Source: Candidatus Latescibacterota bacterium (lineage in GTDB: Bacteria > Krumholzibacteriota > Krumholzibacteriia > Krumholzibacteriales > Krumholzibacteriaceae). Taken from it: a stretch of DNA of 36,916 bases. The stretch covers positions 1-36,916 of the forward strand of contig JAHOYU010000175.1 in NCBI GenBank assembly GCA_019038625.1, in the 5' to 3' direction. Below, piece after piece: positions 297 through 28,194 of the stretch (its first letter is position 1; each line of letters opens with the position of its first letter). The notes beneath the pieces were generated by a model. It was not told where the DNA came from. It did no database searches and saw only the letters and a list, made by a program, of their open reading frames with translations. A program made the position numbers and the translations under genes.

Positions 297-851
297 CGCT
301 GGAAGTCCACGCCAGCTCTTTATACGCTCAAGAACACGTACTATTCGTTCTCCTGACAGTGATGTATCTATCTCGATATCCAAGATCTCTCTTACTCCTT
401 CATCAAGCACATTAAAGGTCCTGAACCGGCGACCTATATAAAGCGTGTCGTGCATAAATTCTATCGACCAGACAGCGTTGGGCTCAGCAGGCACCTCAAG
501 AGTCTCATGGGTTCGCACAGGTAGCCGCTTCTTTGTCTTGCGCCGTTGGTTCAGGCCTAGCTCCTTGTATACCCGGTATATCCGCTTGTGATTCCACCGG
601 TGGCCATCCAGCCTGATCCGATCAAAACACTTCCAGAACCCCCAGCGTATGTTGTCTTCCATAAGCTCCTGAAGTGCATCTATCACTTCTCGATCTCTTG
701 CCAGCTTATCTACCAACGGCCGGTACCAGGCTGAACGTGATTGTCCTACCGCCCCGCATGCTTTTCGTATAGACAGTTTCTTCTCCGCCACCAGATACTC
801 TGCCACTTCTCGCCTCTTTGGTAGCGTAAGCTCCCATACACATACTGACAA
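297..851 (-). pseudogene. IS3-family transposase OrfB, 3'-truncated remnant
   Basis: Reading leftward from 851 (TTG), the protein has the helix-turn-helix region of IS3-type OrfB (KLSIRKACGAVGQSRSAWYR), a helical linker with KRIYRVYKELGL, and the start of the DDE integrase core (VWSIEFMHDTLYIGRRFRTF). Homology stops after ERIKSWRGLPA, just where the second catalytic Asp segment (DNGPEF-like) should follow; the open frame continues to 150 but that part is antisense to the protease. Two thirds of the catalytic core is therefore missing and the element cannot transpose by itself. No OrfA is visible upstream. The first catalytic residue is Glu (WSIEF) where Asp is usual. Confidence 0.85.
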
Positions 852-2602: not shown

Positions 2603-4744
2603 TCAGCTTATCAATCTTCCAGATAACTTAGCCAAAGTTTTCCAGACCCAGGGCAATTTCGTCTTGTTGTCTATGATTTTTGTCTTTGACTGTCTTGCGA
2701 GGCTGATCGACCTTCCCGAATCGGTAAAGGAACATCTGCTGAATCCGGCATTACTCCACATCCCTATCCTGACTGCCTTTTTCCTGTTGTCCGAAAACTT
2801 ACAATCCGACAGATCGATAGATACTCCTCCGAATACTTTTATACCTGGACCGAGATTTCCTTTGAATCCCCCTGTCTGTACGGACATGTCGAGGTGTCCT
2901 ATTCCAAGTATTCCTTCGAGATGATTATTTTCGAATTTAGTCCCCCTGATACTGACTGCCCCGGGCTTTCCTTCATCCTGTTTTCCGACCAGAGTCACTC
3001 CCGGTCCCATGTTGTTATTTATTTCGTTTTCTTTGAATGAAACTGATTCTACTTCGTCCATATATATTCCGCACAACCCGTTACCCAGAATCGTCGATTC
3101 ATTGATTTCCAGCTCCCTGACACCCACAGCCCACATCCCACACCTGTAGTTCTTTTCCATTATTATTCCCTGCAATATTATCTCGGACAATGGACCAGCA
3201 AGGATCCCGCTTTCTCTGCAGTTCCTCGCGGCAGTGCTTTTCAGTTTTGCTTTGGAGCCCTTACCCAGAATCAGACCATTCCCTCCGGGTCCGTCAACGA
3301 TGCAATTGATGATATCCGCCGTTCCTCCATCCACCACTCTGATTCCAGCAGCATTCCCACGGAAAAATTTACATGCCTCCAATCTGACTGCTTCATCAAC
3401 TCTTCCAACAACGAATTGATCGGCCCCTGAGTCCGAGATTTCCACATCTTTATACAAACCCGTGGCTGAGTTCTGGAGCAGGATTCCAGAACCCCGTGAA
3501 TCCCTTATCTTTGTATTTGACACCGTCGGTCTCGCACCAGACATGACATAGATACCGACACCGCATCCATCCAATTTACAGTCATCGATATTGGATGCTG
3601 ATCCATCGATAACTATTATTCCCGCTCCTGAAATGTCTTTTATCTTGTTATTTTCCAGAGTTATGCCCGAATCTCCGGAAACCTGAATACCGTTTCCTTT
3701 GCCATCAGCTATAGTACATCTTATCATTTCTGTCCCCGGGCAATCCTCAATTCGGCAGGCTACCGATCCAGAATCTATCATTTTACTATCCGACAACAAC
3801 AGTTTTCCTTTAGACGCAATTACCTGCTCTATTCCACCCACAAAGGACGAATTCGAGACCGAACATTCCCCGCCAATGATCTCCAGATGGGAAGCACTTC
3901 TCCCCCTGAGTTTGATCTCGTCCAGACTCAGATGGTCCGGAGCCTCCAAATTGATGGATCTCGTACAGCCATCGACATCAACTTTTCTTATTCCCCCATG
4001 CGATCCACTTGATTCCAATCCTATAGCAAATCCAGAGATTTTCAGACTGGATAGTTCAAGTGCATTCTCGGCAACGCCTATTATGCCCGTCCCCCTGGGT
4101 TTAAAGAGTTCCGTGTTTTTCTGTTTGCCTTCCTGACCGGCCACTACACCATTAATGCTTGTTTGCGATACAGTTAAGCTCGCACCACGCTCACATTTTA
4201 TTCCATAATCTCCCGGTTGGCTGATAGACGATCCGGTCAATATGAACATCGCTTTTTCTTGAATATTTATCCCAAGCCCTTTCCTGCAGTCAAAACGGCA
4301 CCCATCCATTTTCAAACATCCGGTGTGGATGTCAACGAGAGGAAATCCGCCTTCGTCCAGGCCCCGAAACACACTGATATCGTTTAGGACAACATCCTCA
4401 CTGAAAACCTTTATTGCCGGAGACGAAACAGTCTCGAGGAATACCTCTCCTCCTCCACCATCTGCTTTTTTCAGGGTTATTGGCTTATCGATTATAACCG
4501 GTTCCCTGTATCTCCCTGGTGGTATCTCAATAATCCCGCCAGGTTTCACTGCAAGTACCGCGTCACGTATGTTCTCTATACCGGAATCCGACCCCAGGAG
4601 AACACTATCCAGATAGTTGAGATGTGCCCCGGCCTCTTCCTCCGTCTGGACCAAAGGAGTGTCGCATGACCTGTAGCAGACAAAACCGTTAGCTGCCGCG
4701 TTTTCGTCTAGCCATTTTCTTCTGCATGCCGGACAGATATACAT
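2603..4744 (-). CDS. Zinc-ribbon and right-handed beta-helix protein
   Basis: The start is placed at ATG 4744, which has AAGGA six bases upstream and follows the previous stop by one base; in-frame TTG 4765 and ATG 4762 would overlap that gene. The protein is about 713 aa. The first 30 residues hold CPAC...CYRSC, a CxxC/CxxxC pair that looks like a zinc ribbon. The remainder is a series of about 20-25-residue repeats (for example NGIQVSGDSGITLENNKIKD, SGILLQNSATGLYKDVEISD) typical of parallel beta-helix proteins of the pectate-lyase/NosD fold. There is no signal peptide, so it is probably cytoplasmic, unlike most beta-helix enzymes. No catalytic signature is seen. A scaffold or binding role in the operon's complex is inferred. 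Confidence 0.8.
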   Translation of the reverse strand: MYICPACRRKWLDENAAANGFVCYRSCDTPLVQTEEEAGAHLNYLDSVLLGSDSGIENIRDAVLAVKPGGIIEIPPGRYREPVIIDKPITLKKADGGGGEVFLETVSSPAIKVFSEDVVLNDISVFRGLDEGGFPLVDIHTGCLKMDGCRFDCRKGLGINIQEKAMFILTGSSISQPGDYGIKCERGASLTVSQTSINGVVAGQEGKQKNTELFKPRGTGIIGVAENALELSSLKISGFAIGLESSGSHGGIRKVDVDGCTRSINLEAPDHLSLDEIKLRGRSASHLEIIGGECSVSNSSFVGGIEQVIASKGKLLLSDSKMIDSGSVACRIEDCPGTEMIRCTIADGKGNGIQVSGDSGITLENNKIKDISGAGIIVIDGSASNIDDCKLDGCGVGIYVMSGARPTVSNTKIRDSRGSGILLQNSATGLYKDVEISDSGADQFVVGRVDEAVRLEACKFFRGNAAGIRVVDGGTADIINCIVDGPGGNGLILGKGSKAKLKSTAARNCRESGILAGPLSEIILQGIIMEKNYRCGMWAVGVRELEINESTILGNGLCGIYMDEVESVSFKENEINNNMGPGVTLVGKQDEGKPGAVSIRGTKFENNHLEGILGIGHLDMSVQTGGFKGNLGPGIKVFGGVSIDLSDCKFSDNRKKAVRIGMWSNAGFSRCSFTDSGRSISLARQSKTKIIDNKTKLPWVWKTLAKLSGRLIS

Positions 4745-4745
4745 A

Positions 4746-5387
4746 TTATTCCTTGATTTCATCAAGGTTGCTTTGTGATCGTCTTAACTTCAGATTTATT
4801 CTTCTGGCGACTTCACTGAACAAGTCATCCCCAAGATCCAGCGCCGGATCAACCACTATATCCGTATCGCTCGGTTCCGAAACCGTGAAAATCGCTTTTC
4901 CCTGGATAACCGGTGTTTTCCCAAGTTTGTGCATGTTGATCACCGTCCCAGGTGCCGGTTTTCGTACCTGTAATCTCTCCTGCCCGGACATGATATTGTA
5001 TTCTTCACCCCTCATATTATCTTCCTCTTCCTGATCATGATAGGTCACACCAGAAAGATCCGGTCCGGAGTTTTTCCATCCTGCTCGTTTTACTTCGCGG
5101 ATAGAGCTTATCTGTCTATATGCCCGTCCTTTTTCAGTCTTTTTTTCAATAATTGTTTCAACAACTTCTTCTGTCACTTCGTTTATTTCCGCGCTTTCGA
5201 TTTCCTCGATTTCTACGGGATCATCTACGTCCCCTACTACAACCTCATCCTCTTCAATCGGAACCTGAAGCATTGTATCGTCTACCTCAATTCCCTGGTC
5301 ATCTGAGACCACATCAGGTTCTCCCCGGCTTCTTTTTCGAGTCTTAACTCTGCTGATCGCATCCTTTATCCAATTTATTATCTTCAT
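4746..5387 (-). CDS. Acidic, largely disordered protein, unknown
   Basis: This 213-aa protein begins with an amphipathic basic stretch (MKIINWIKDAISRVKTRKRS), continues as a long acidic low-complexity region (residues about 25-85, many E, D and V), and ends in a more ordered region. No signal peptide or membrane segment is present. Its ATG overlaps the previous stop by 4 bp (ATGA at 5384-5387), which suggests translational coupling. The basic N-terminal helix could bind membrane or an acidic partner. The architecture suggests an adaptor or linker subunit; I cannot name a family. Confidence 0.65.
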   Translation of the reverse strand: MKIINWIKDAISRVKTRKRSRGEPDVVSDDQGIEVDDTMLQVPIEEDEVVVGDVDDPVEIEEIESAEINEVTEEVVETIIEKKTEKGRAYRQISSIREVKRAGWKNSGPDLSGVTYHDQEEEDNMRGEEYNIMSGQERLQVRKPAPGTVINMHKLGKTPVIQGKAIFTVSEPSDTDIVVDPALDLGDDLFSEVARRINLKLRRSQSNLDEIKE

Positions 5388-9229: not shown

Positions 9230-12200
9230 TTACTTGCCCTTTCCGGGCCTTCCTATCCTGTTAGCATCAGCGTATACTTTTGACATCAGTTCACTTTTTG
9301 GATCCGACCATTCAGACCCGTCAGCTTCGGTGTCCGATGAATATTCTGTCACCTCTTTACCGAGAGCTGTCTCTATTCCTTCCATTGTCTCCTCATCTTC
9401 TGATCCGTCTATCCAGAGATTACAGCCGAAATCCAGGGGTTCTTCATCCGCTTCCGGATCCCTTGCGAGGACCACCTTCTTGAAATACTCCACAACGCGA
9501 TCGGCTATAGTGATATCCATTTCCGGAGACGGATCCGGAGGAAGATGGTCAAACTTCCCAAGTCTGGGGAAAAAACAATCCTGAATCCTGTACCACTCGG
9601 CTCCCTCTTCGTGCATAGATACAATCAAGGCTGCGATCTTCCTGATAAGGACGGGCTCTATCATGTTACAGACACCCAACCCTCCCGGCACATTATCTAT
9701 TATGGTCACATCATAATAAAGGTTCTCTGCCACTCCCCTGCTAAAAGGCTTAAAGCAGTTATGTGTCACATCAATTACATCCTCTGTATCGAGGCATACC
9801 ATCTTGAGATAACGCTTCAGGACGTGAGCAATAAGATGAGCCGATTCGGAATCGAGACCAGGGAAAAACAGGACCGAAGCATCTACTTCCATCTCTGAAG
9901 TGATCTGGCCTTCTATGCCATACAATGATTCTTCGATAAGATCCTGACCCCTCCAGGTCCTGTACCCGAGGATGACTTCTTTTATTTTCATCCTTGTCCT
10001 GTAGATTCCTATTCCCTCTTCAGAAAAGATATGATCACTCGCCAGAGTGATGTCTTTATTCTCGAGAATGAATATCTGCCTTATCTTCAGGGTTCGTAGA
10101 TCTTCAGGTTCCGGATAACATTCAAGGACACCCTTGATCGGCAATCCTTTTACTCTTACTCGTTCTCCATTAAGTGAGAAGATCCTTCCCGGCCACAGAA
10201 TCGAAAGTTGCCGCTGAGGGTCTATTTTTCTTCGAATCCCCAGTTCTATACAACGCACTTCGATCGGCGGAATATCATGATCCGGATCATCGACAGCCCC
10301 GTCAACCGTCCGGGTGACTGGGATGGCATACCCTGTATCGCGCCTGTAAGAAAAGGTTTTCCCATAAACAGGGTCATTAATTATCTGTACAGGTTGTTCT
10401 TCCTTGCCTTTACATTCCGCCTTCAAACTGATCAACAGATCCTCGAGGGCTCTTTTCCCGAAAAGTTCCGCGATTCGGTCTACAGGTTGTGGTTTTTCAA
10501 GGATCAGTCGCGTCATCTGTTTACGATTAAGGATAGGATTATCGATGCCTGGCAATAGAACAGGTGACACCTGATTGTGTCTGTACTGCAGGAATTCTCC
10601 TAAATGGTCATGCAGCCATTGCTCGAAGCCGTCTCTCGGAGGCATCATGAAACAGATATGATGTCCCGTGGTGCATGCTCTCGATAGTTCCCGTATCTCC
10701 GAGACCTGGGTAAAGAATGTTTCCGGAAGAAGCCTGACCAGGCTTACGACTACTGATTCTTCTGCGAATTCTTCCGCTCTGGTGGTCCAGCGCGCCAGGT
10801 CAAGACTGTCAAGATTCGCTTTTGCTCTCGGCCCTATGCTCAGGTAGAACTTCTCATATCCCGCATCCGCCATACCGCTACCAAACCGTGTCAACAGGTC
10901 AAGGTCGTCCTTGAAATTGAGGCTGTCCCGCCCCCTGTTGCCCATTGTCATCAGATCTATCCTTGAACCGCCCGCATAACCAAGTGGTAATTCGACAAAT
11001 TCGCGGCTTAGAAGCCTGTTAAAAGACCTCTGGTCCTCCCGAGCACCGTCGAGAACCGAGACCATGACAGGAAGGTCCGCTGGTTGCTTACCAGCGAGTG
11101 ATGTCATTCTCTTTATAATGAACGGTATCTCAGCCTTTATGAGGGGCGACGACTCATCAGTCTCAAATATTATCGCCAGATCCATTCTTGTCCAGAATAG
11201 CGACAACCGGTTCTCATGGTCGGCGATCCTGTCAAATGAACCGAGATCGGCAACCAGAATATCTATTTTATCAGCCGTACCCTTTACTTCGAAGAGGTGT
11301 TCGCTCCCCGCATATTCTATGTTGAAACATTGCACTGCGGGATAATGGTTACTGAACGCTTCAAGTCTTCGGATAAGCTTTGCCGCCTGATCGGCATTCC
11401 TCACCAGTATAAGAGAGCTTCCACCGCGAAATGCTGCTTCTATAGAGCACAGGATACCAACGACCTCACGACCCGACCCTCTTGGGCCATTGACAACAAG
11501 GGACAGCTTTTCTGATAAAAGCTTTTCCAGCGCATGGCAAAGGAATGCTTCAATATCACGTCTACCGAAGAGCTCGAGGCTGTCCTTCATTCGATCGGAA
11601 AGTTCTGCATCAGGAACCGGCACGGCATTTCCAGCATTCTGATGGATGGTCTCCCTGTACTTTATCGCGGAGTCATCTCCCCCGGTTCCCAGATATCTTT
11701 TGTCTGAAAGAAATTCTGGAAGTTTTTCAACTTCAATTTTCCGGCCCGTCTTCATGGGAGAACGGGTAAAATCGATACGGCTGCCCCAGACGGGTGCAAA
11801 CATCCGAGGCAATACAACCGGGAACAGGTGGGCCGCTGCCAGAAATGCAGGCGGAAGATAAAGACTGAAAAATATCGCCAGCAGGTCGGAAACAAGCAGA
11901 AACAGCACATAGACAGGTACCAGTATCACAAGCCATTTCTTTGTGCTGCCATCGAGACGATTATAATTCACGAAGCACAACACTCTCCACGTGCGCCTTG
12001 CGATGCGGGACCGCCTTGAGAAAGGTTCGACGTGGAGCCAGTCCAGATTGAAGATACGGTAGACCTGGCGCGGTAGAATAACGAGTAAAATACCTCCCAG
12101 TATCGTATACAACACCATTGGCAGAAAGAAACTCCTCGAACCAAATAAGAATCTGCTAATGGGTTCCGGAATCGGTCCAGCAGGTGTTCTCTGGAGCAGA

Positions 12201-12787
12201 AGACTCAGCGGGTCTGCACCCACAGCCCGTTCTATGAAGAGCGAGATTACAGCATATATCACGGCCACTATGATGAGGGATATGACAAGCAACGGAGCGT
12301 CATGAACCGCAATCTGCCACATCCCCTCTTTATCTCTGAGACCGGCCGAAGAAAATCTTTTATCAGTTTCAGAGTCATTATCTTCAATGTTGTTATCCTG
12401 ATTCAGGGGTTGTCCGTTTCCTGATCCGATCCCGGTCACTTCTTCAATATCACGGTCGATCTCAGCATTTTCGGGATTATCGTCTTCCTCTATTATTACA
12501 CCCGGTTCTTCATCCTTATCAGGTTCCGCGGAGGAACCGCTCTTCCCTTCAAAGTCAGATCCGATGTCTCCATACCTGGCGTTCAAAGATGGGAACTCAT
12601 CCAACAACAGATCGATATCCTGCTCCTGTTCGATTCTCAATCGTCGTCCGAGATAAAACAGGTACGTACCAATCGCAAAAAGGATGAAAATATATACGGG
12701 AAACACCCAGAGGACGGCAGCAGCCTGCAATGCTTCACCTATTTCATTCAGGCCGTTACCAAATATTTCGTTCAGAAGGTTATTCAT
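9230..12787 (-). CDS. Membrane-anchored DUF1998 helicase-like protein with degenerate ATPase motifs
   Basis: This 1185-aa protein has hydrophobic segments near residues 23-46, 165-187, 220-240 and 286-328, with an acidic linker (80-150) between the first two. Residues about 400-620 follow the order of an SF2 helicase first RecA domain: GPRGSGRE (434-441) where Walker A GxxGxGK[ST] is expected, a motif-Ia-like SLILVRNADQAAKLI, DILVADLGSF, and DLAIIFETDE where a DExH Walker B should sit. The Walker A Lys is Arg and the acidic box is not intact, so ATP hydrolysis is unlikely. The C-terminal part matches DUF1998 of YprA/MrfA-like helicases (LWPGRIFSLNGERVRVKG; IIDNVPGGLG near 1032-1038) but lacks the usual cysteine cluster. 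A membrane-bound helicase relative is very unusual; it probably serves as a nucleotide or nucleic-acid sensor or a scaffold. Confidence 0.7.
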   Translation of the reverse strand: MNNLLNEIFGNGLNEIGEALQAAAVLWVFPVYIFILFAIGTYLFYLGRRLRIEQEQDIDLLLDEFPSLNARYGDIGSDFEGKSGSSAEPDKDEEPGVIIEEDDNPENAEIDRDIEEVTGIGSGNGQPLNQDNNIEDNDSETDKRFSSAGLRDKEGMWQIAVHDAPLLVISLIIVAVIYAVISLFIERAVGADPLSLLLQRTPAGPIPEPISRFLFGSRSFFLPMVLYTILGGILLVILPRQVYRIFNLDWLHVEPFSRRSRIARRTWRVLCFVNYNRLDGSTKKWLVILVPVYVLFLLVSDLLAIFFSLYLPPAFLAAAHLFPVVLPRMFAPVWGSRIDFTRSPMKTGRKIEVEKLPEFLSDKRYLGTGGDDSAIKYRETIHQNAGNAVPVPDAELSDRMKDSLELFGRRDIEAFLCHALEKLLSEKLSLVVNGPRGSGREVVGILCSIEAAFRGGSSLILVRNADQAAKLIRRLEAFSNHYPAVQCFNIEYAGSEHLFEVKGTADKIDILVADLGSFDRIADHENRLSLFWTRMDLAIIFETDESSPLIKAEIPFIIKRMTSLAGKQPADLPVMVSVLDGAREDQRSFNRLLSREFVELPLGYAGGSRIDLMTMGNRGRDSLNFKDDLDLLTRFGSGMADAGYEKFYLSIGPRAKANLDSLDLARWTTRAEEFAEESVVVSLVRLLPETFFTQVSEIRELSRACTTGHHICFMMPPRDGFEQWLHDHLGEFLQYRHNQVSPVLLPGIDNPILNRKQMTRLILEKPQPVDRIAELFGKRALEDLLISLKAECKGKEEQPVQIINDPVYGKTFSYRRDTGYAIPVTRTVDGAVDDPDHDIPPIEVRCIELGIRRKIDPQRQLSILWPGRIFSLNGERVRVKGLPIKGVLECYPEPEDLRTLKIRQIFILENKDITLASDHIFSEEGIGIYRTRMKIKEVILGYRTWRGQDLIEESLYGIEGQITSEMEVDASVLFFPGLDSESAHLIAHVLKRYLKMVCLDTEDVIDVTHNCFKPFSRGVAENLYYDVTIIDNVPGGLGVCNMIEPVLIRKIAALIVSMHEEGAEWYRIQDCFFPRLGKFDHLPPDPSPEMDITIADRVVEYFKKVVLARDPEADEEPLDFGCNLWIDGSEDEETMEGIETALGKEVTEYSSDTEADGSEWSDPKSELMSKVYADANRIGRPGKGK

Positions 12788-12789
12788 TT

Positions 12790-15420
12790 TCAGACTCTTA
12801 ATTCATCCCATGGCTTAATGTCTTCGAATGTTTCGTCACTGCTCTTAATCCATTCTTCCATAAAATCGTCTATCTCATCGTTGCTGTGGTCCGGGTACAT
12901 GTATCGCAGAATCGATTGAATACTGATGTCACGAATGATCCGCAAACCCCAGATATGGTCCTTTTCGCTGGATATAATCTTCTTGAATGATGCCATCGCC
13001 CTGCTCTCCAGAGTCTGAATAAAACTCAAAGCTTCCTGGGGACATACGAGAAATATCTTCGTATCCTCGATGAGCTTGTCCTGTTCCTGCGATGTCAGAA
13101 AGTGAAATATCTGGCCGTGAGAAAGTCTGTCCGACAGTCCTGTAAGGAATTTTCCAAGTGAAAGTAAGAGTTTTTCCTCTTGAGATGGAAGCGAAAAGAC
13201 ACTGCAATCTTTGAAGAAGGGTATCTCCCTTTCCGCCTCTGACAGGACACGGTCGAAATCCGCCACTTCATTGAGGAATGAATCAACACCATCACGGCAC
13301 AACCTGTACGCGACATTCTGGGCTGATATCCTGATCGAAAGACTCTTGTTGATCTGGATGGCAAACTGTTCTGCATCCTGAGGATCGACGAGATAATCGT
13401 TGAAATAAAGATTCCTCTCGACCTCCAGTTCCCTGTCTTCATGCAGCATTTTCAGTTTATCTTCGATTCTTTCCAGGACTTTTGCGGCTGTTTCCCGGGC
13501 TTTTCTAACCCTGATCTCCACAAATTTCAATAACCCCTGGATCAGGCTCAACGATCCCAGCTCCTCATGCTTATACCACCATGAGCCGGTCTTTCTAGCC
13601 ATCAGTGAGCCGGCTGCGGGGAAAACTCCCATATAGTCAACTCCGCCTACTAATTCAGGAGCATCATCCTCCATCACTTCTTCCATGATCCTGCTTGATT
13701 CCGATGGCGTCGTATCAAGATATTTCTTGAGCCGGCGCCTGGTGTACAAATGGTACAGGCCCAGCAAGGGAAAACAGATTATGAATGAGACTATCAGAAG
13801 GGCTGGAAACAGCATGGGATGCTCATTAAAACTCTCCAGCAATCTCGCCCCCTCTGTAGAAGGATCGACGAATGTCTTCCAGAGCCTGAAAATTGCCAGT
13901 AGTTGTAGAGTTGAAAACACGGCCATAAGCGGGATCCAGATCCTGAAAGCGTAGCCCGGGATATAATTCCAGATCTGTCCCCTCAACCGGGCCCACATGT
14001 CGCGCACGATAGCAAATCTCCATCTTCTTTGAGGCAGTTTTTCCTCTTCGGAATCAAGCAGTCTTCGCGCCTGACGGATTATAGTTTCCTCGCACGTCCT
14101 GAGGGCCGCACAAAATGTATTCAGTGAATAACCAGCCTTTCCCGTTTCGAGGAGATCGACAAGCTCGTTATCAAGCATTCCCATGATGCGTTTGAGTTCG
14201 CTGTTGCATATATCTCTGAGTAACCGGGCCTTTTTATGAAAGTCCAAAGCGACGTCCTGCCCCGGAGGAGGGTAACAACTGTCGATCAGGTGTTCGAGCC
14301 ATTTCCGGTCGAAATACCTCTCCAGAGTTTCCGGGGGATACCGATACGGTTCCAGAGGGAAGGTCTGGCCTGAAGCAAAGATCTCGAAAAGTCTTTCTTC
14401 AAGAGCAGGAGTAGTGGCGCTGATCCTTCCCTTGTAATGAAAAAGCATTTCGTGGATCGTGTCTCTGTATCTTTCTCTGCCTGTGACATTACGCAGAGTA
14501 TTGGAATCTATTATCTCGTCCTGTATAATTCTGGAAATCCCCAGAATTTCAGCCTGCTGGGCCGGCTGCCCTACATTTCTTCCTTCGGGAACCCTGGCCA
14601 TCTGGCTATACAGATCTTCGACTATCAGCGAGAGTGCTTTCTGATGGAAATATTTTCTTGTGAATTGAATAGTCGCCAGACTCAATACACAGAAGAAATC
14701 CTCTCCGTATTTCGAAAAATTAAGCAGTAGACGAAATTCAGAATCAGCCCGGATTCCTCCCCTGGTACAGAGACCGATAAAGTGTGATGTGATACCTACG
14801 ATCTCAACATCGTTAAGCTGAATATTGTTCGTAAATCCATCATACAGGAAGAACCTCGGTATGGCGGGTCGCCCCTCTTTCTGAAGATTCGTATGCCAGG
14901 CCTCGATGTTTGCCAACTGGCGAGCGATGATCTTTCGGCTCGGCTCGCGGGGCATGTTTACCGACAGGGCAACTGGATGAATAAAAAGACGCGCGTTGCA
15001 CAAGTCATCCCTGAAACTGAATATTGACGAGTATCTTTCGTGAGCGAGCCGCTCGATAAATGGTAGTACAAGAGGAAGGTAGAACCTGAAATCCTCATCG
15101 CGCCAGGCCCCGCAGACGAAAACGTCGAGATAATAAGAGTATCCGAAATTCTTTACCGGCCTGTCACCGAGAAGCTTTTCAAAAGCTGTCGCAATGTTTT
15201 CCAGGAGTTTGTTCTCGCTGCTCGACCACAATCTGTCGGGCGAACGATCGATTTTACCTGATCTTTTCGTACAATGGCTCAGTACGATGAATGTCGAGGA
15301 ATCTTCACGATTGATATCCTCTGAACTTCCCTCTCCGTACTCGTCGAGATAGTGTTGAGCCACCTGCTCACCCATCTCGCCGATTCCCAGAATTATCGAC
15401 TGGCACTTGAGGATCTTCAA
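12790..15420 (-). CDS. Membrane-anchored divergent tubulin-like protein (pseudo-GTPase candidate)
   Basis: This is an 876-aa protein. Its first 260 residues line up by eye, segment by segment, with the Tubulin_2 protein encoded two genes upstream: SIILGIGEMGEQVAQHY against the GLGGAGGQ loop, YLDVFVCGAWRDEDFRFYLP against the GGTGSG segment, FFLYDGFTNNIQLNDVEIVG against the FIYVIDTNPDVFIDNWKVS strand, and a matching helix after it. The tubulin signature GGTGSG is replaced by GAWRDED, so GTP binding is probably lost. Two membrane segments lie near residues 491-511 and 537-557, followed by about 300 soluble, partly coiled residues. The ATG overlaps the previous stop by 4 bp. Membrane tethering of the tubulin-like filament is the inferred role. 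Confidence 0.6.
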   Translation of the reverse strand: MKILKCQSIILGIGEMGEQVAQHYLDEYGEGSSEDINREDSSTFIVLSHCTKRSGKIDRSPDRLWSSSENKLLENIATAFEKLLGDRPVKNFGYSYYLDVFVCGAWRDEDFRFYLPLVLPFIERLAHERYSSIFSFRDDLCNARLFIHPVALSVNMPREPSRKIIARQLANIEAWHTNLQKEGRPAIPRFFLYDGFTNNIQLNDVEIVGITSHFIGLCTRGGIRADSEFRLLLNFSKYGEDFFCVLSLATIQFTRKYFHQKALSLIVEDLYSQMARVPEGRNVGQPAQQAEILGISRIIQDEIIDSNTLRNVTGRERYRDTIHEMLFHYKGRISATTPALEERLFEIFASGQTFPLEPYRYPPETLERYFDRKWLEHLIDSCYPPPGQDVALDFHKKARLLRDICNSELKRIMGMLDNELVDLLETGKAGYSLNTFCAALRTCEETIIRQARRLLDSEEEKLPQRRWRFAIVRDMWARLRGQIWNYIPGYAFRIWIPLMAVFSTLQLLAIFRLWKTFVDPSTEGARLLESFNEHPMLFPALLIVSFIICFPLLGLYHLYTRRRLKKYLDTTPSESSRIMEEVMEDDAPELVGGVDYMGVFPAAGSLMARKTGSWWYKHEELGSLSLIQGLLKFVEIRVRKARETAAKVLERIEDKLKMLHEDRELEVERNLYFNDYLVDPQDAEQFAIQINKSLSIRISAQNVAYRLCRDGVDSFLNEVADFDRVLSEAEREIPFFKDCSVFSLPSQEEKLLLSLGKFLTGLSDRLSHGQIFHFLTSQEQDKLIEDTKIFLVCPQEALSFIQTLESRAMASFKKIISSEKDHIWGLRIIRDISIQSILRYMYPDHSNDEIDDFMEEWIKSSDETFEDIKPWDELRV

Positions 15421-16406
15421 TTCTCACCGCCGTTTTCACTCAAGCCCAGCCATCTCATTACGAATTCGGGCATCTTCCCGGAGATATCTGCTCTGTCGGG
15501 CGCTGTCCTGCGTGCGAGAGAATCGAAGTATTTATCCAACACCTGAGGTCTGTTTTTTACCGTTTTCCCATACTTTTTCATGAATCCTTTTCGTGGATCT
15601 GCCCCTGTATCACCAGGTTCGGGCCACGCGGGCAAGGGATCGTTGAGCACTCTTTTAAACGATTCATAGTAGATCCCACTGATGGTAAAGTCGCTCAGTG
15701 TCCTTGCAACCCCTATAGACAGCCACTGGTTCCCCGCGTGAAATACCGTCTCTTCGGAGGGTACTTTCAACCGCGCGGGGCTCATGGCACGTCGAACCTC
15801 TTCAGGATACTCCTCACCCGGTGTAACCGGCGGGATCCTCTCCCACGATGCTGTGTCGTCCGACTCGACCTTGCTTTTTTTGTCCTCTGGTTGATATATC
15901 CCCAGTGTACGACAACACTCCGGCCATCTCGACAATCGTTGAAGGGGTTCCTCGAGCTTGTCGTTCAGAATCCAGACAGTTTCCGCCATCCTGACAATCA
16001 TCTCCTGAGAATAGAAGCCTCCTGGATTATCAAGCACGAACAGGGTCCCCGAAGCATCAGCCCTGCCTACGACCCGCAGTTCCAGGTCACGGAGGCCGCC
16101 GTATATCCTTGCCTCAGTCAGGAGCCTGGTCTCGTATTCTACATTCATGCTGTAAACATCTGGAAGGTAAGCGACTATCAACCATTCTCCCTCATAAGAA
16201 TGGCTGGCCTGTACCGCTTCGAAATCGGAACAGTCTACGATAATAACGCCACGCCCGTTCCTTCCCTTGCCAGCACCGGGAACTGGAAAACTCTTATGGG
16301 AAGCATAATGGTCCATCCATACTCTTCGCCCGGAAGAACTGACAAGTTCAGCCGTCTCGGGCCAGTGCCGCCCCAGGAATACAATCTGCCGGTTTTCTTC
16401 TTTCAT
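15417..16406 (-). CDS. Soluble protein between the two tubulin-like genes, unknown
   Basis: This is a 329-aa protein without signal peptide or membrane segment. The N-terminal 150 residues alternate strands and helices (RQIVFLGRHWPETAELV, GRGVIIVDCSDFEAV, GEWLIVAYLPD, GTLFVLDNPGGF), which suggests a Rossmann-like alpha/beta domain, and the C-terminal third is helical and basic. No nucleotide-binding loop is evident. It starts 12 bp after the Tubulin_2 gene and overlaps the next by 4 bp (ATGA, 15417-15420). This tight position suggests it contacts one or both tubulin-like proteins. Family not recognised. Confidence 0.65.
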   Translation of the reverse strand: MKEENRQIVFLGRHWPETAELVSSSGRRVWMDHYASHKSFPVPGAGKGRNGRGVIIVDCSDFEAVQASHSYEGEWLIVAYLPDVYSMNVEYETRLLTEARIYGGLRDLELRVVGRADASGTLFVLDNPGGFYSQEMIVRMAETVWILNDKLEEPLQRLSRWPECCRTLGIYQPEDKKSKVESDDTASWERIPPVTPGEEYPEEVRRAMSPARLKVPSEETVFHAGNQWLSIGVARTLSDFTISGIYYESFKRVLNDPLPAWPEPGDTGADPRKGFMKKYGKTVKNRPQVLDKYFDSLARRTAPDRADISGKMPEFVMRWLGLSENGGEN

Positions 16407-16418
16407 ACCGATTCCAGA

Positions 16419-19400
16419 CTAACTTTTCTTTCCAAGACCACTATCATAAGATTGGCGATGTTTTTCTTTTCTTTTTGTCTCAAGGATCTTTTTCTTCTCG
16501 CACTCCATATATTCCTGAAGGAGATCGGCCAGCTCCTTTATCTCAGTATCGTCTTCCTCGTTCCCCCATACATCGCCTGACAGCAGCGACAGACAGAATT
16601 CCCTCTGCTTTTCGATCTCATCGAGATCAAGAGCACTTGACGATCCGAACGTCTTCTCCATCAATTCATGCGCACTGTGAGCCTTCATCATCGCCTGGAT
16701 AGCTTCTCTCGCGGACTGCCCGAGAAGAATATCTTCTCCTATGTTGCCCAGTTTGCCTGAAGGAACCACGAATCCCCTGTCGTCATCACGGATGATATGC
16801 CCTTCTTTATAAAGGGTGTACCAGTATGAGAAGAATTTGCAGCTCTCCTCGTTGATCATGCTACTCGAGACGAGAGCCTCTTCAGGATCGAGAGATAGGG
16901 GCAGCTTGCTTTCATCGATGCCCGGATCACCCATTTCCCAGTTTCTATCTATATGAAGGGGATACTGGCGGCCGTGCTGAGGTCTCGTCCAGTCCCTCTC
17001 TCCGAGTCTGGTGTTGTAAGCCTCCTTCATCGTGGTTACCAGGTTTCTGAATACAAAGAGTGGAACACCGAGCACCGCGCGGTAGAAAATAGCCATTTTC
17101 CCGTTATCGGAATAATCCTTATCAACAAATTCAGGACTTACTCTTCTTACCAGGTGAGGAAAATCAAGCGATTGCACATCAGGCTTCGGATCAGGATACA
17201 GATCATGGTCATAACACACGAGTGATTGCTTGCACGAATACTCTGTTACTTCCATATCCTCCATATCGATATTGGCCATAATCGCGCTTCGCCTGACACA
17301 TGTAGATATCTTGGTTTCGAGATAGTTCCTCATGAATCTCTGCATCTCGACATCAAGTTCGCGCTGAGAACGATTGAGAAGTTTTTTCTCGGTACTGTAG
17401 ACAATATCGATCCAGTTCTCCTCACAGTCCTCCAGTCTTCCCATCGCTCTGAGCCGCCCTCTGAATTTAAGCTGTGCTTCGGCCATAAGAGCCTGCTGCA
17501 GATTCAGCCCCCTTTTTTCTTTTCCTTCCTTGTACGTGCCGACGATCCTCGGCCTCAGGGCTTCTTTGACGTTTTCCGTGAATACGATCCGGATCCGGTC
17601 GACCTGGTCCCTGACGGTCGTCAGGTTGGGATCGCTGAAAACGCTTGCGATCGTCTTATGTACCTCTCTGGTCCTTATTTTCACACTTTCCTTGACGAAC
17701 ACGTTGTAGTATTCATTCCACATCCGAGCACCGTCAAAGCCCTGTAAAGCCTCGATATCGTTGTAATACTGTTCGGCCTGTGTATCACCCCCAGGATTCT
17801 TCTGGAATTCGCTGGCCTGCCTGGCAAGTTCCTTTATCTCTTTATCGGCCTGTGTGCTGAACATGCGGAATGTCTCGCCCAGTTCAGTGAAGATCTCGAG
17901 CAACTTCGCGTGAAGATCGTGATAGAACTGCAGAAATACGAGGGTCGAATACCGGGTAGATATGGTGTTGATCCACATATCCAGTCTCTCGACTGATTGG
18001 CTGAAGTCTTCGGCACCACTTCCCCGTGTGACTTCTGATATCCATTCGTGCCACTTTGTCTTCGAGGCTTCTCGAAGTTCTTCATCGCCCCTGATTACTG
18101 CTATCGATTCGTTAAGAGCCTGTTCGCTATTATCGAGCCTGTTCTGTTCCAGGACTTTCCTCAAAATAGTGCAGACTGAATCACTGAGTTTGATGTTGGC
18201 GATTATGAACAGCCTCTGCATATGAAACGGCGTTCTTTCGTGAGCGAGGAAGTCGGTAATAAAACTCCTCTTTAATGTGTCGTCCATCATATTAGTCTTC
18301 TGACGGACTTTCTCCCTCGCGCTGTGCAGGTCTCTTCGATTCAACTTTATGTTCGCATCGAAGATATCCTGCATGTCCTCCCAACTCTCCTCCTTCGCGC
18401 TCTCCCCGCGAGTGGTCCTGTGATGCTGCAACTGAACGGCCCTTGCGGTATCTTCGAAAAACAGTGAACTGAGCCTGTCCCAGAAACGCCGGAAAGTGCC
18501 TGTAGACAGATAATTCAGGCCTTCCCGTTCTTCGATAAGCAACGTACTCTCCAGTACATCACCGAATTTATTATAAGCGAAGAAGAATGGTTCGAGCTTG
18601 GCCAGGTACTGGCGCGACACCTTGCCACCGCCGGGCTGCGATCCGCTATCCCCGGATTCATCGCCTTCGAATACATCCATATTCTCAGGTGAGATGTCTT
18701 CCGGAAGAATCAGCTTGTACAGCAGGCTCTTGCTTTCCTCGTCCATCGGTTTTGTGGCCAGATCATCGACCGAGTTCTGCAACCCCTTGAGATTCAGAGA
18801 TTTCGCATACCCTGCCTTTTTCAATTCGTTGAGATACTTATTGCCTCCGTGGCTGTCCTGACGGTCATGCATATATTCCACGAATTTTTCGTCATAGAGG
18901 CGATCCTGTTCCTTGCTGTCCAGTCCTTCGAGATCATCAAGCTTAGGGATATAATCCTTTTTACCTGAAGGAAGCATAAGAAACAGTCTTGCAGAAAGAT
19001 GTTCCTGGATCACGTCGGCGGTCTTCCTCATCGAACAGTATTCGAGAAGGTCGTTATCGGGAAGAACCAGAACGGAGCAACCGTAACTCCCATAGAACGT
19101 ACTGTAAAGTCCTCTAGCGAGCCGCTTCTGGTTCTTTTCGTAATTGTCGTAGTCGCTGTTCCTGTGAGCGAATATCGGCGAGAACAGCTGTAGATAAATT
19201 GCGTCTGCAACCGATACCTTCCAGTTATCGATAAAAACGTCCGGATTGGTATCTATAACATAGATGAAATCAAACGGACTTTCGGTTATCTCGGTATCTG
19301 AAATAAATGGATGATAGACAAACGATCTCCTGTTCCTGGCATCACGAAGGTCAGAGAAGACCTTGAGATGCATCAGGTGCTCGTCCTCTTTCATGGCGCT

Positions 19401-20075
19401 GTATCCGTTGGCCATGATGTCTCCTCTCTGCCTCATGTTCCGGATTTTTGGCAGAACGAGAGTGGAGAGCATCGATATGCCGGTTATATTGGCCGACCAT
19501 CCGAAGTTATTGATCAGGTTTCGAATGATCGCAGCAAACATCAGGTGGGCACCCGAACCAGTGCCTCCCGCCACAGTATAGTACATGAAGACGTTGAACT
19601 TCTTTACTTCATAGGACAGCATCGTGTTCTGCATGTCGATGGTCGAGAGGATAGCTGACTCGAGCCGCTTGATCAGGTCGGTCGATTCGAGGCTGTTGTA
19701 GAGGCTCACCCTGCTCTCTATCCTTATCTGGCCGGCTCCCGCGCCCTGCGAAGAACGGAAGTTATACCAGTCGTGAATCCACTGATCGACCCTTGGATCG
19801 GGATCAGGTTTGCTCGCCCCACCTCGTCCGAGTTTATCCTTGACCCAGAGCCCCTTGTCGAACCCGCTTATGGCATAACGGTGCGCCTGGGGTACGTGCC
19901 TGCACCCATCCAGATCAGCCTTGTCTGTATCGATAACGAAGAACTGCATCGTCTTCTGAAGCAGTTCCCAGTCATCCCTGTCTCCCAGAATGGAAGCTAT
20001 CCGGTTGACGATCTGCCCGCCGGCTCCACCCAGACCGATGAACAGTGTCGGTGGATGTTTACGATCATTAATCAT
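16419..20075 (-). CDS. Tubulin_2 family (FtsZ/tubulin-like) GTPase, very long form
   Basis: The protein is about 1218 aa from ATG 20075, which has GGGAG nine bases upstream; ATG 20096 overlaps the vWA stop (ATGA) and is the alternative. The N-terminus shows PPTLFIGLGGAGGQIVNRI, the first nucleotide loop of tubulin-like GTPases, then SSQGAGAGQIR, which is typical of Pfam Tubulin_2 (PF13809), and AGGTGSGAHLMFAAIIRNL (GGTGSG near residues 170-175), the tubulin/FtsZ signature that contacts GTP phosphates. FIYVIDTNPDVF fits a later core strand. After about 400 residues of tubulin core come 800 residues of helices, much longer than FtsZ. Such proteins are expected to bind GTP and perhaps polymerise in the cytoplasm. 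It follows a vWA lipoprotein, a pairing reported for some bacterial FtsZ-like families linked to membrane remodelling. Confidence 0.88.
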   Translation of the reverse strand: MINDRKHPPTLFIGLGGAGGQIVNRIASILGDRDDWELLQKTMQFFVIDTDKADLDGCRHVPQAHRYAISGFDKGLWVKDKLGRGGASKPDPDPRVDQWIHDWYNFRSSQGAGAGQIRIESRVSLYNSLESTDLIKRLESAILSTIDMQNTMLSYEVKKFNVFMYYTVAGGTGSGAHLMFAAIIRNLINNFGWSANITGISMLSTLVLPKIRNMRQRGDIMANGYSAMKEDEHLMHLKVFSDLRDARNRRSFVYHPFISDTEITESPFDFIYVIDTNPDVFIDNWKVSVADAIYLQLFSPIFAHRNSDYDNYEKNQKRLARGLYSTFYGSYGCSVLVLPDNDLLEYCSMRKTADVIQEHLSARLFLMLPSGKKDYIPKLDDLEGLDSKEQDRLYDEKFVEYMHDRQDSHGGNKYLNELKKAGYAKSLNLKGLQNSVDDLATKPMDEESKSLLYKLILPEDISPENMDVFEGDESGDSGSQPGGGKVSRQYLAKLEPFFFAYNKFGDVLESTLLIEEREGLNYLSTGTFRRFWDRLSSLFFEDTARAVQLQHHRTTRGESAKEESWEDMQDIFDANIKLNRRDLHSAREKVRQKTNMMDDTLKRSFITDFLAHERTPFHMQRLFIIANIKLSDSVCTILRKVLEQNRLDNSEQALNESIAVIRGDEELREASKTKWHEWISEVTRGSGAEDFSQSVERLDMWINTISTRYSTLVFLQFYHDLHAKLLEIFTELGETFRMFSTQADKEIKELARQASEFQKNPGGDTQAEQYYNDIEALQGFDGARMWNEYYNVFVKESVKIRTREVHKTIASVFSDPNLTTVRDQVDRIRIVFTENVKEALRPRIVGTYKEGKEKRGLNLQQALMAEAQLKFRGRLRAMGRLEDCEENWIDIVYSTEKKLLNRSQRELDVEMQRFMRNYLETKISTCVRRSAIMANIDMEDMEVTEYSCKQSLVCYDHDLYPDPKPDVQSLDFPHLVRRVSPEFVDKDYSDNGKMAIFYRAVLGVPLFVFRNLVTTMKEAYNTRLGERDWTRPQHGRQYPLHIDRNWEMGDPGIDESKLPLSLDPEEALVSSSMINEESCKFFSYWYTLYKEGHIIRDDDRGFVVPSGKLGNIGEDILLGQSAREAIQAMMKAHSAHELMEKTFGSSSALDLDEIEKQREFCLSLLSGDVWGNEEDDTEIKELADLLQEYMECEKKKILETKRKEKHRQSYDSGLGKKS

Positions 20076-20092
20076 AATCTTTTTCTCCCTGA

Positions 20093-22474
20093 TCATTTGA
20101 GCCTGATAACAAAACGACCTTCTTCTATCTCACCTGGGACCGGATAACTGATAGAACCGCGTACCGGTACAAGCTTGTTCTTGTCAGAGGGAGCTTCCTT
20201 GCCCGTCACTCTGTGCAGATCACCCAGCCTGATCAGTATCTTTCCGCCCGACCGGAAAAAACCAACGTTGGTATTTCCGACCTTGGCCTTGAAAGGCCTG
20301 GCGAACGGTCCTGTAGGGAATCCAAGGACTGATTGGATCAACCGGCCCAGTTTGCTTCCGAAACTCGAATCCAGATATTTGTTTTGAGTTTTCTTTCCTT
20401 TCCTCTTGTTAGTAAAGGATTTTACCATCGTCAACGGATATAAAAACAGAAGTGCCTTTAGATAGGAAGAGAGCAAGCCTTCACCTGGACGCGGACTGTG
20501 ATATCGCCTGAGGGCCCTCTTCGGCTTATATGAGATCTTCCGTGTACTGTAACCAAACACGTAATGTAAAGGACGATAGATGAAGAAAAGGAAGATCCAC
20601 AGATAGATCAGCCACTGCAGCCAGAAATGACTGGTCCTCCATGCCCAACCGAGCTCCTGGATCTCGGCTTTCACGCCGATCTCCTTGTCTCCCTTTATCT
20701 TTCCTGCATTTGAAGGATATATGATCGGTACTACAAGTCTCTTTCCAAGCTTTCTAGCGTCACGATTGATATCGAGATAGAAATCAGCCTTATAATCTTC
20801 GTCTATGACGAAACGCTTTCTATGGCGCCGGTCGGTCAGTCGGATTCGATATTCGTCATAAAGTTTTTCTTCATCGAGCTTGAATACCACTCCCCTGAGA
20901 GCCGGATCGGTACCTTTGAATCTCACAACAGCTTTATTCTTCCTCCAGTTCTCAGCATAAGGAAGTTTAAGCAATTTACTCACGCATCGACACCACCAGT
21001 AATACATACCGTCGGCAAAAGGAATGACTTCTCCAAAATCAGCGTCGTTGTTGACCCTCAGAATGACTCCGTCCTTGCCTCCGAACTTAACGTTGATTGT
21101 CCGGTTGAGCCACATGCTGTTACCGGCCGAGCAGACAAGGTCGTGAAATAAGGTGTCCTTCGGCGTAATTTCCATCTCGAATCCGTATCGCTCATCTGGC
21201 CTGTCCTCGAGGGATGTCTCCACGTAATTAAGGGAGTACTTAAACTCTCCCTCACTGAAAAATTCAGGATCCTTGATCGGCTCCCCGCTGCTGTCTACCA
21301 GACGTCCCCGGACCAGGTTGGGAGCATTCATCAGACCCCTTTTCGGGTACTTGCCGTATATCTGTAAATAAACATCGTAATTCTGGATCAGAAGGGCTGA
21401 CGCATCCTCTAGCCCTTCCAGCTTGAAATCCCATGAACCAGGATTCGGATCGTTGACATGAATGATCTGGTAAGGCCCCAGATGCTCTGTCCTGTCCATT
21501 CGAACATAGCCCGACCCTCCTAATTGACTGGACAGCTTGCTTCCTTCCGGGTCCTCGAAGGAAACGGACAGCTGATCCCCCTTATCGGGGATGAAGAGAA
21601 CAAATTCCTTAACATACTTGTTAATATTTACTGAAGTCTTGCCCTGCAGCGGGCAGGGCTCTACCCTGGTTTCCAGTATCTTTCCGAAAACTTCGGCGAA
21701 TTTTCCCACAAGGTCCTCGGGTCGCCCGGCCTTGAGTATCGTTCCCCCCGTCGCCTCAGCCAGAGGAAGAAGATGGTCTATCCTCGTAGCATCACCGAGA
21801 GCCACACCGTAGAAAACTATATTATTCTTTTTAAGGACATCCCGGTACTTGAGAAGATTCTCCTTCTCTCGCCTGTGTATCTCTTCCATCCAGGAATTCG
21901 TGCGTTTTCCACCCCGGTCAGTGTTTCCGTCTGTAAAAAGTATCAGATAGCGTTTCGCCTCAACAGGTTCCATCGACGAAAGATTCTTGACTGCCCTGTA
22001 GATCGGCTCCTCGAACACGGTGATCTGCGAATAATATTCAAGACTCTTTACCCAGTCCTTCAGTTCACCATTACCGGACGGATCGTTCCTTAATGGCCCT
22101 ATCTGGTCTGCCGTCGATGACTTCCAGCCTGCACAACTGGCATTGATTACATCGGTTGCCAGCTTGTCCGAGCTGACGACACCCGGATTAGGAAAGCTCG
22201 TTATGTAAAGTTGATCCATATCGCTGAGCATATCGATGAAGACAAGAGACGAGAAAAGCATCATCTTCTGCTTGTCATTCCTTTTCATGCTTCCCGAGCT
22301 ATCGAGGACCAGGGCGAGGTTCCTTTGCAGCGGAGGAGCACCCTTGGACCATGTGATCTCATCGTCAGGGATCTTATCCTTTTTGAACTTGGCTGCAAAA
22401 TCACCTATGGTGTCACAGCCAATAAGAGACAAAATTCCTGCAAACAGAATCAAAACAACGAACGATCGTTTCAT
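20093..22474 (-). CDS. vWA-domain lipoprotein with C-terminal membrane segment
   Basis: This is a 793-aa protein. The N-terminus is a lipoprotein signal (FAGILSLIGC, lipobox cysteine at residue 20). A von Willebrand factor A domain follows, with an intact MIDAS motif DSSGS (58-62) and the strand LILFTDGNTD, so it can bind a metal ion and a protein ligand. Residues about 280-600 are beta-rich and look like linked Ig-type segments. One strong membrane segment (WLQWLIYLWIFLFFIY, about 615-640) is followed by a basic region of about 150 residues predicted to be cytoplasmic. This topology would put the vWA domain outside the inner membrane and a tail inside, able to reach the Tubulin_2 protein encoded immediately downstream with overlapping genes. 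It follows the M48 gene by 16 bp. Confidence 0.88.
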   Translation of the reverse strand: MKRSFVVLILFAGILSLIGCDTIGDFAAKFKKDKIPDDEITWSKGAPPLQRNLALVLDSSGSMKRNDKQKMMLFSSLVFIDMLSDMDQLYITSFPNPGVVSSDKLATDVINASCAGWKSSTADQIGPLRNDPSGNGELKDWVKSLEYYSQITVFEEPIYRAVKNLSSMEPVEAKRYLILFTDGNTDRGGKRTNSWMEEIHRREKENLLKYRDVLKKNNIVFYGVALGDATRIDHLLPLAEATGGTILKAGRPEDLVGKFAEVFGKILETRVEPCPLQGKTSVNINKYVKEFVLFIPDKGDQLSVSFEDPEGSKLSSQLGGSGYVRMDRTEHLGPYQIIHVNDPNPGSWDFKLEGLEDASALLIQNYDVYLQIYGKYPKRGLMNAPNLVRGRLVDSSGEPIKDPEFFSEGEFKYSLNYVETSLEDRPDERYGFEMEITPKDTLFHDLVCSAGNSMWLNRTINVKFGGKDGVILRVNNDADFGEVIPFADGMYYWWCRCVSKLLKLPYAENWRKNKAVVRFKGTDPALRGVVFKLDEEKLYDEYRIRLTDRRHRKRFVIDEDYKADFYLDINRDARKLGKRLVVPIIYPSNAGKIKGDKEIGVKAEIQELGWAWRTSHFWLQWLIYLWIFLFFIYRPLHYVFGYSTRKISYKPKRALRRYHSPRPGEGLLSSYLKALLFLYPLTMVKSFTNKRKGKKTQNKYLDSSFGSKLGRLIQSVLGFPTGPFARPFKAKVGNTNVGFFRSGGKILIRLGDLHRVTGKEAPSDKNKLVPVRGSISYPVPGEIEEGRFVIRLK

Positions 22475-22490
22475 AATCTCTCCCGCATTA

Positions 22491-23612
22491 TCATTTTACG
22501 CGAACATCCTGCATTCCCAGGCGTGCGAGCCTCTGCCAGCGTCGCATCGAATTAGGATGAGACTGCTCGAGTTCCGATAAAAACGTAACAATATCTCCGA
22601 TAACTGTATTTGATTCGAGGGATCGACTGTGGGCGACGACAGTAGCGAACAGGTCATAACGGCGCGGGAACCCGCTTTTTCCGAGACTCACGCGCATATC
22701 CTCAAGTTTCATCAGGGATGTTATAAGACCTGAGGCGCTACCGCTGAGAATAACCCCGTAATCATCAGCCAGATATTCGGCAAGCTGGGATTCCCAGTAC
22801 AGCAAAGCCCTGGGCAGCCATAACGGCATACTTATCATGTTGATTATAAGTCTGATAACGAAGCTGAACCCTGAAAAGACAAAGCGTAATATCCCTAACG
22901 GTAATCGCTCAAGATACATGAACACAGTCTTAATAATTCGATTGATCATTTGCACGGGCCAGAACAGGTAGTGAAGTATTTTAGTGACTTCCGAGAACAT
23001 ACAGGTGACGATATAGTCGTTTTCAACGATATGTCCTGTCTCGTGAGCAAGGATCGAACGCAGCTGGGGCAGGCTCATCTCCTGAAGAACATCGAGAGCA
23101 AAGACGATCCTGGCCCTGTCCAGGTTGCCATATGTTATGACATTGGATTTAATCCTGTCAGTGTAATATACGTCCGCATGTTTATCGATAAGCCCCTGCC
23201 TCATCCATAGTCTCAGATCAGATCCGAGAGTGTGCAACTTTCTGTTACAGTCCGCGTTTATCGAAGGTTCTCCCTCACCCTCCGGAAGCTTCACCCTTAC
23301 ATCAAGGTCCCGATCATATATCCTCGGAAGGGAAAAATATGTGAGCAACCCCGGGACAACAGCCGCCATGATGACTATCAGCAGAAGCGTACCGATGATC
23401 TCGAGAGGTATCATCTGGCTGAAATCGAAGATCTTCAGCGGTACGTTGACGATGACTATGACAGAGGCAACAAACGATGTGACTATGATCAGGATCGTCA
23501 GGACTATAAGGAATATTGCCAGCTTTTTACCAAGAACAAGGGGCAGACTGTGACTCCGCAGAAGTTCGACAAGTTCAACCCTCGAAAGACTTGTCCTGAT
23601 ACCAGTAAACAA
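22491..23612 (-). CDS. M48-family (HtpX/Ste24-like) membrane zinc metalloprotease
   Basis: This is a 373-aa protein starting at TTG 23612, with AGGGA six to seven bases upstream. It has two hydrophobic segments at about residues 31-56 and 67-95, then the M48 zinc motif LAHETGHIVENDY (HETGH 190-194), a further hydrophobic region (about 212-270), and the third zinc ligand in EYLADDYG (E279, D283), the usual ExxxD of M48 enzymes. All catalytic residues are present, so it should be an active membrane peptidase, with length close to the family norm. As first gene of the operon it may process or turn over the membrane subunits encoded downstream, as HtpX does for membrane proteins; that part is inference. 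Confidence 0.9.
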   Translation of the reverse strand: MFTGIRTSLSRVELVELLRSHSLPLVLGKKLAIFLIVLTILIIVTSFVASVIVIVNVPLKIFDFSQMIPLEIIGTLLLIVIMAAVVPGLLTYFSLPRIYDRDLDVRVKLPEGEGEPSINADCNRKLHTLGSDLRLWMRQGLIDKHADVYYTDRIKSNVITYGNLDRARIVFALDVLQEMSLPQLRSILAHETGHIVENDYIVTCMFSEVTKILHYLFWPVQMINRIIKTVFMYLERLPLGILRFVFSGFSFVIRLIINMISMPLWLPRALLYWESQLAEYLADDYGVILSGSASGLITSLMKLEDMRVSLGKSGFPRRYDLFATVVAHSRSLESNTVIGDIVTFLSELEQSHPNSMRRWQRLARLGMQDVRVK

Positions 23613-28064: not shown

Positions 28065-28194
28065 ATGATGTTCAGCGGTCTGACTCAATTGTCGCAACCC
28101 CCCATATAGATAGCTTTTACCGCCAGATGACACCAGGTCCCCCCTGAATGTGTCCAGATTACCGAGTGCATCAACCTTGCGAAGCGTGCACGAA

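Follow-up and report, generated by a model that had tools for sequence, protein, structure and literature searches.

P0001, a candidate membrane-anchored and probably GTP-less partner of the Tubulin_2 GTPase in a Latescibacterota operon

P0001, an 876-residue protein encoded in the window (the whole 36,916-nucleotide stretch of Candidatus Latescibacterota DNA that was analysed), may be anchored in the membrane as the probably GTP-less partner of its operon's Tubulin_2 GTPase, derived from a tubulin and having a tether-type role, a reading of the sequence on which our judgement is evenly balanced. In two other lineages (genome G381 and the bacterial family of genome G130), the pairing of a GTP-competent Tubulin_2 protein with an adjoining GTP-less Tubulin_2 relative is, as judged from profile comparisons, a real arrangement. 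P0001 belongs to a run of minus-strand genes that encode, in this order, an M48-type peptidase, a vWA protein, Tubulin_2, a 329-residue protein, P0001 and a membrane protein of 1185 residues, with more, unassigned genes beyond. The features of this run are the following (window coordinates).

22491-23612, minus strand: M48-type peptidase, in the gene run
20093..22474, minus strand: vWA protein with an N-terminal hydrophobic segment (PF00092, E 1.9e-6), upstream of Tubulin_2
16419..20096, minus strand: P0002, the Tubulin_2 (FtsZl1) protein, 1225 residues (PF13809, E 2.2e-42)
15417..16406, minus strand: 329-residue protein between Tubulin_2 and P0001, with no Pfam or NCBIfam match
12790..15420, minus strand: P0001, open reading frame of 876 residues with a TTG start, operonic
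15334..15399, minus strand: P0001 residues 8-29, including GIGEMGE (residues 12-18) in place of GLGGTGx
15091..15111, minus strand: GAWRDED, P0001 residues 104-110, assigned by eye to the position of GGTGSG if the domain is a tubulin
13885..13941, minus strand: first hydrophobic segment of the hairpin, P0001 residues 494-512 (Kyte-Doolittle scan)
13756..13812, minus strand: second hydrophobic segment of the hairpin, P0001 residues 537-555 (Kyte-Doolittle scan)
9230..12787, minus strand: 1185-residue protein with hydrophobic N-terminal segments, counterpart of the membrane DEAD-box helicase of locus L080

The TTG start of P0001 shares 4 nucleotides with the stop of the gene upstream, and the next gene begins 2 nucleotides past the stop of P0001. 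From its amino terminus, the protein consists of an N-terminal domain, a helical middle, a two-helix membrane hairpin and a C-terminal domain. The open reading frame, the GIGEMGE and GAWRDED strings and the two membrane segments that a preliminary description of this DNA had listed were all present. The hairpin is flanked by positive charges and its loop carries a net charge of -2; the positive flanks suggest that the large N-terminal and C-terminal domains are both cytoplasmic. A GTP loop of the GGTGSG or GG(G)TGSG type is absent from the sequence of P0001. P0002 carries both GTP motifs, namely GLGGAG at residue 21 and the T4 loop GGTGSG at residues 177-182.

No match to P0001 was obtained in NCBIfam or PADLOC and none of significance in Pfam (two lines at E 0.2), and no relatives were found in genome contigs, viral contigs or a plasmid collection, with P0001 itself being the only protein returned from 193 genomes. 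Such isolation would suit a fast-evolving operon protein that has no mechanistic tie to Tubulin_2 and, for instance, partners with the membrane helicase alone. We consider this very improbable, since the place of the protein beside Tubulin_2, its size and its hairpin are kept in the syntenic operon of locus L080 (genome G553), where genes for a vWA protein, Tubulin_2, an 859-residue protein and a 1194-residue membrane DEAD protein follow one another. The 859-residue protein, which occupies the position after Tubulin_2 (hereafter the slot), has its hairpin at residues 488 and 540, and both its size and the position of the hairpin are like those of P0001. BLAST comparison of the two operons linked the Tubulin_2 proteins (E 1e-28), the vWA proteins (E 2e-7) and the 1185-residue protein with the DEAD protein (E 4.7e-4), the latter being encoded at L080 6591-10175 and matching DEAD with an E of 2.4e-6 and an MrfA Zn-binding domain below threshold (E 0.072). 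The order vWA, Tubulin_2, hairpin protein and membrane DEAD protein was thus found in the window as well as in L080, although the window has one extra gene, that of the 329-residue protein, between Tubulin_2 and P0001, which is absent from L080. No BLAST similarity was detected between P0001 and the L080 slot protein, and their full-length global alignment was weak, with 1.7% of shuffles reaching its score.

Tubulin ancestry of the N-terminal domain of P0001

On balance, we consider the N-terminal domain of P0001 to be probably a decayed Tubulin_2 domain. The preliminary description had proposed four segments of P0001 that match P0002 in the right order, a claim that did not hold: in pairwise alignment with the Tubulin_2 domain of P0002, the local and semi-global scores were at shuffle level (matched by 30% and 44% of shuffles, respectively), and a profile of 23 Tubulin_2 domains sees residues 8-29 only. 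When the first 60 residues were compared with this profile, residues 8-29 were the best segment, aligned on strand 1, loop T1 and helix 1, with a score that 2.1% of 235 controls equalled; with the register kept, a single control did so. For the L080 slot protein, the first 60 residues, placed on the same strand 1-T1-helix 1 elements, scored better than any of 235 controls, and those of the slot protein of locus L035 were matched in register by two of 235. A GxGxxG start is also common to other Rossmann-like folds.

Beyond the GTP loop, no signal was obtained when P0001 residues 106-290 were compared with the profile (26-32% of 175 controls were equally high). The alignment of the whole domain to Tubulin_2 was marginal (scores as high in 1.9-4.3% of 161 controls and in 1% of shuffles) and was given no weight because its traceback leaves the P0001 motifs out of register. 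In HHalign comparison of the first 330 residues with the 23-domain profile, 7.5% of 161 controls did better, and the profile-profile check that had been proposed for P0001 and Tubulin_2 returned an HHalign probability of just 0.3-3.5%. Pfam gave no match of P0001 to PF13809 at E <= 1, and the protein is kept out of this family because it neither matches the family profile nor carries the GTP loop. A match to a different Rossmann family, named in the preliminary description as evidence against a tubulin, was sought in Pfam, NCBIfam and PDB sequences, and no such family matched P0001; the PDB sequence search yielded two insignificant receptor matches for P0001 and none for P0002.

GIGEMGE lies inside the Tubulin_2-matching residues 8-29; the equivalence of GAWRDED with GGTGSG, read by eye, found no statistical support. 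As the loss of a GTP signature presupposes tubulin ancestry, it is at most likely for P0001. The description of P0001 as a GTP-less membrane-anchored tubulin is partly supported: the protein has the hairpin and occupies the syntenic slot, and its tubulin ancestry draws support from the N-terminal strand-loop-helix only, the rest of the domain being undetectable by sequence.

AlphaFold modelling without relatives of P0001 residues 1-290 reached a pLDDT of 36.9 and a pTM of 0.33. With a true Tubulin_2 domain as control (P0002 residues 1-380), these values were 31.1 and 0.21, and since this control was modelled equally poorly, the failure with P0001 is uninformative on its fold. A Foldseek search with the low-confidence P0001 model (pLDDT 37) gave no match at E <= 0.001, an outcome that carries no meaning for a model of this quality. 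The order of strands and helices in this model was rejected as support for a tubulin, given its pLDDT and the fact that any Rossmann-like domain would fit.

GTP-less Tubulin_2 relatives in the slot of other operons

The distribution of PF13809 was patchy: in the window's phylum, three of the 80 genomes carried it, as did 17 of 387 and 19 of 386 genomes in two wider samples that mostly overlap. The neighbourhood survey comprised 23 loci with a full Tubulin_2 domain (the window, L006, L008-L013, L029-L040 and L080-L082, with L009 and L032 near-identical), beside which three weak-variant loci (L007, L041 and L042) were viewed. A same-strand protein of 563-1390 residues follows Tubulin_2 in 12 of the 23 loci, directly or, in the window, after one gene; three loci (L006, L036 and L040) end at a contig edge, and the remaining ones hold something else in the slot. 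Among ten slot proteins examined, the hairpin was present in six, those of the window, L080, L081, L038, L039 and Azospirillum (the annotated gene L008 21438-23570), and was not found in those of L030 and two Thermales loci nor, at the threshold used, in that of L035. None of the ten has a GGTGSG-like loop. Two of them are clear relatives of Tubulin_2.

L039 3319-7491, directly after Tubulin_2: slot protein of genome G381, a single protein (PF13809, E 7.5e-4)
L030 12444-14846, directly after Tubulin_2: slot protein of genome G130 (PF13809, E 0.028)

The PF13809 match of the L039 protein comes from a scan of all Pfam and falls short of the curated cut-off. When compared by HHalign with a profile that excluded the Tubulin_2 protein of this operon, the L039 protein reached 96.6% over 346 columns, and its reversed sequence 0.7%. 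It has a GLGEHG start and the hairpin, and the GTP loop is absent. The L039 protein is like P0001 in its G-x-G-E-x-G start, its hairpin and its missing GTP loop, and unlike it in its C-terminal end (residues 1243-1337), which is a transglutaminase-type domain (E 1.7e-9).

Relatives of the L030 protein were present in 71 of the 148 genomes of G130's bacterial family. A profile built from 29 valid members out of 30 fetched loci gave an HHalign probability of 95.6% (E 1.2e-8), with 0.6% for the reversed control; the wrong-frame L057 was left out, and the result was unchanged. A Tubulin_2 gene lies directly upstream in 29 of the 30 fetched loci, the thirtieth being the wrong-frame pick, and a GTGSG-like loop was found in none of the 30. 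These proteins share with P0001 the missing GTP loop and the upstream Tubulin_2 gene, but differ from it in having no hairpin. Composite profiles that hold L039 and L030-family members were excluded as evidence for those same proteins.

In place of the GTP loop, 28 of the 29 valid members of the G130 family keep the sequence TR-x-(D/E)DP-x-NV (e.g. TRVDDPLNV) or near variants, a conservation which suggests that this surface has kept a function. The same conservation would suit a tubulin-derived domain that uses the altered loop to bind a nucleotide or another ligand and that polymerises as a second subunit, with no tether or cap function. For P0001 we regard this as improbable, given the absence of a GGTGSG-like loop from all ten slot proteins examined and the fact that the G130-family proteins, having no hairpin, may work unlike P0001.

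Both the L039 and the G130-family proteins are detectable with Tubulin_2 profiles, whereas P0001 is not. HHalign comparison of P0001 with the L030 family gave 0.07%, and neither BLAST nor global alignment of P0001 with the L039 protein was significant. As a group, the slot proteins were enriched for Tubulin_2 similarity in HHalign on 330 residues (p 0.003) and in the N-terminal 60 residues (p 0.043), but not in the whole-domain test (p 0.37-0.56). The slot proteins of L081, L038 and Azospirillum gave no tubulin signal, and the three-sequence profile of the Thermales slot proteins showed no significant similarity to Tubulin_2, one member having a z of 4.3 against shuffles. Searches within the slot proteins' own groups added no further full-length member (G381, two of ten genomes, one of them by a 73-residue piece; G177 and G553, one of seven each), and a search for related loci with P0002 gave nothing useful. 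One homologous family of slot proteins was considered and rejected, as most of them are mutually unalignable.

These results are also compatible with P0001 being a scaffold partner of Tubulin_2 at the membrane, with an N-terminal alpha/beta (Rossmann-like) domain that has no kinship to tubulin; different lineages would then have filled the slot with different, non-homologous membrane proteins. We take this to be a real possibility, though one we would not favour: the confinement of the Tubulin_2 match to the GxGxxG stretch of P0001, with the remainder failing, the several slot proteins without detectable tubulin signal and the failure of HHalign to connect P0001 with either of the proven GTP-less relatives all agree with it, whereas it leaves aside that proven Tubulin_2 relatives fill the same slot in two lineages, that the N-termini of P0001, its L080 counterpart and the L035 protein match in register and that no other family matched P0001.

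Possible role at the membrane and relation to known systems

If P0001 is a tubulin-derived partner with a tether-type role, its N-terminal domain most likely derives from a copy of Tubulin_2 that shed the GTP loop. The two-helix hairpin would cross the membrane and return, and both large domains would lie in the cytoplasm. P0001 would dock on Tubulin_2 without binding GTP, the hairpin would place this contact at the membrane, and Tubulin_2 protomers or filament ends would be held there, as by a tether or cap, beside the DEAD-type membrane protein and the vWA protein. In FtsZ and tubulin, GTP is located between successive subunits, so that a subunit lacking a GTP site would have a single face for contact with the active protein and would terminate or anchor a filament.

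More speculatively, and less likely than not, many Tubulin_2 (FtsZl1) systems might be two-subunit tubulins in which one subunit binds GTP and the other, a dedicated one, is GTP-less and in most lineages carries a hairpin, P0001 being a highly diverged case. If this were true, a protein of the same family would build the polymer onto the membrane or end it there. The presence of the GTP-less family in almost half of the genomes searched in G130's family makes the idea testable in other bacteria, whatever P0001 proves to be, and a pair of the P0001 type would give a clean two-protein system for asking how a relative caps or tethers a tubulin polymer.

FtsA, SepF and ZipA are membrane tethers of FtsZ, and the role proposed for P0001 would be analogous to theirs, keeping a tubulin-type polymer attached to the membrane; none of the three is known to be a tubulin relative. 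Misato/DML1 and other relatives of tubulin are presumed to have no GTP site and not to be GTPases. Misato/DML1 differs from P0001 in that it is eukaryotic, is not membrane-anchored and has no operon pairing with an active tubulin.

In the portions of their paper drawn on here, Makarova and Koonin (2010; PMC2875224) described FtsZl1 operons with vWA, kinase, GTPase and OmpA proteins, proposed membrane remodelling and characterized the remaining neighbours as lineage-specific and without recognisable domains. As in those systems, Tubulin_2 in the window operon is accompanied by a vWA protein and further membrane proteins. According to the same portions, T6-H7 elements are not identifiable in FtsZl1/Tubulin_2 and filament formation is uncertain, and the route of these proteins to the membrane is not stated (PMC2875224); a GTP-less tubulin subunit anchored in the membrane would provide such a link. 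A 2023 review of the family, in the part consulted, sets Tubulin_2 proteins apart as divergent (PMC9871819). A GTP-less Tubulin_2 partner beside FtsZl1 is not mentioned in those portions of the main text of PMC2875224, and we found no report of one in the open-licence literature as far as it was accessible, supplements aside.

Neighbourhood observations

Within the gene run, the 329-residue protein (15417-16406) shows by eye a strand-helix-strand order and could be another decayed alpha/beta domain; its HHalign comparison with the Tubulin_2 profile gave nothing. The nucleotide loop of the protein at 9230-12787 looks degenerate by eye, and a membrane-anchored helicase relative adjoining a tubulin is an odd pairing. 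A 720-residue right-handed beta-helix protein (2603-4765, minus strand; E 5e-55) lies at the far end of the run, and a protein with SNase and lamin-tail domains (27120-28205, minus strand) on its opposite side.

In a 992-residue protein encoded at 23766-26744 (minus strand), a TAXI/NMT1-type solute-binding domain (E 2e-45) is joined to two RCK-type domains and an ion-channel segment. The Tubulin_2 operon of Azospirillum is also adjoined by a gene for a TAXI-family TRAP binding protein (L008 15301-16590), and a reviewer's comment in PMC2875224 refers to a TRAP periplasmic component adjoining FtsZl1 in Polaromonas. TAXI-type proteins near the Tubulin_2/FtsZl1 genes of the window, Azospirillum and Polaromonas are possibly a recurrent partner. 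At the end of the window, an integrase-type (rve) gene is present (150-851, minus strand), and Tubulin_2 was absent from the other species of the genus and from 18 other genomes of the family that were searched; taken together, these two observations indicate that the operon may have been acquired horizontally.

In the weak-variant loci L007 (8994-14076, genome G031), L041 and L042, a tubulin-like protein of 488-556 residues, short and with a weak match, is directly followed by a protein of 1092-1139 residues. The one in L007 resembles by eye an actin/Hsp70-type ATPase (DFGTSNT), which would make a pair of tubulin-like and actin-like genes. Finally, on plasmids of Meiothermus, Allomeiothermus and Thermus (L009, L010 and L012), genes for a vWA protein, Tubulin_2, a protein of about 680 residues and brxL occur together, and their location amid helicase, DNA methyltransferase and Swt1-HEPN genes gives these modules a defence-like neighbourhood.
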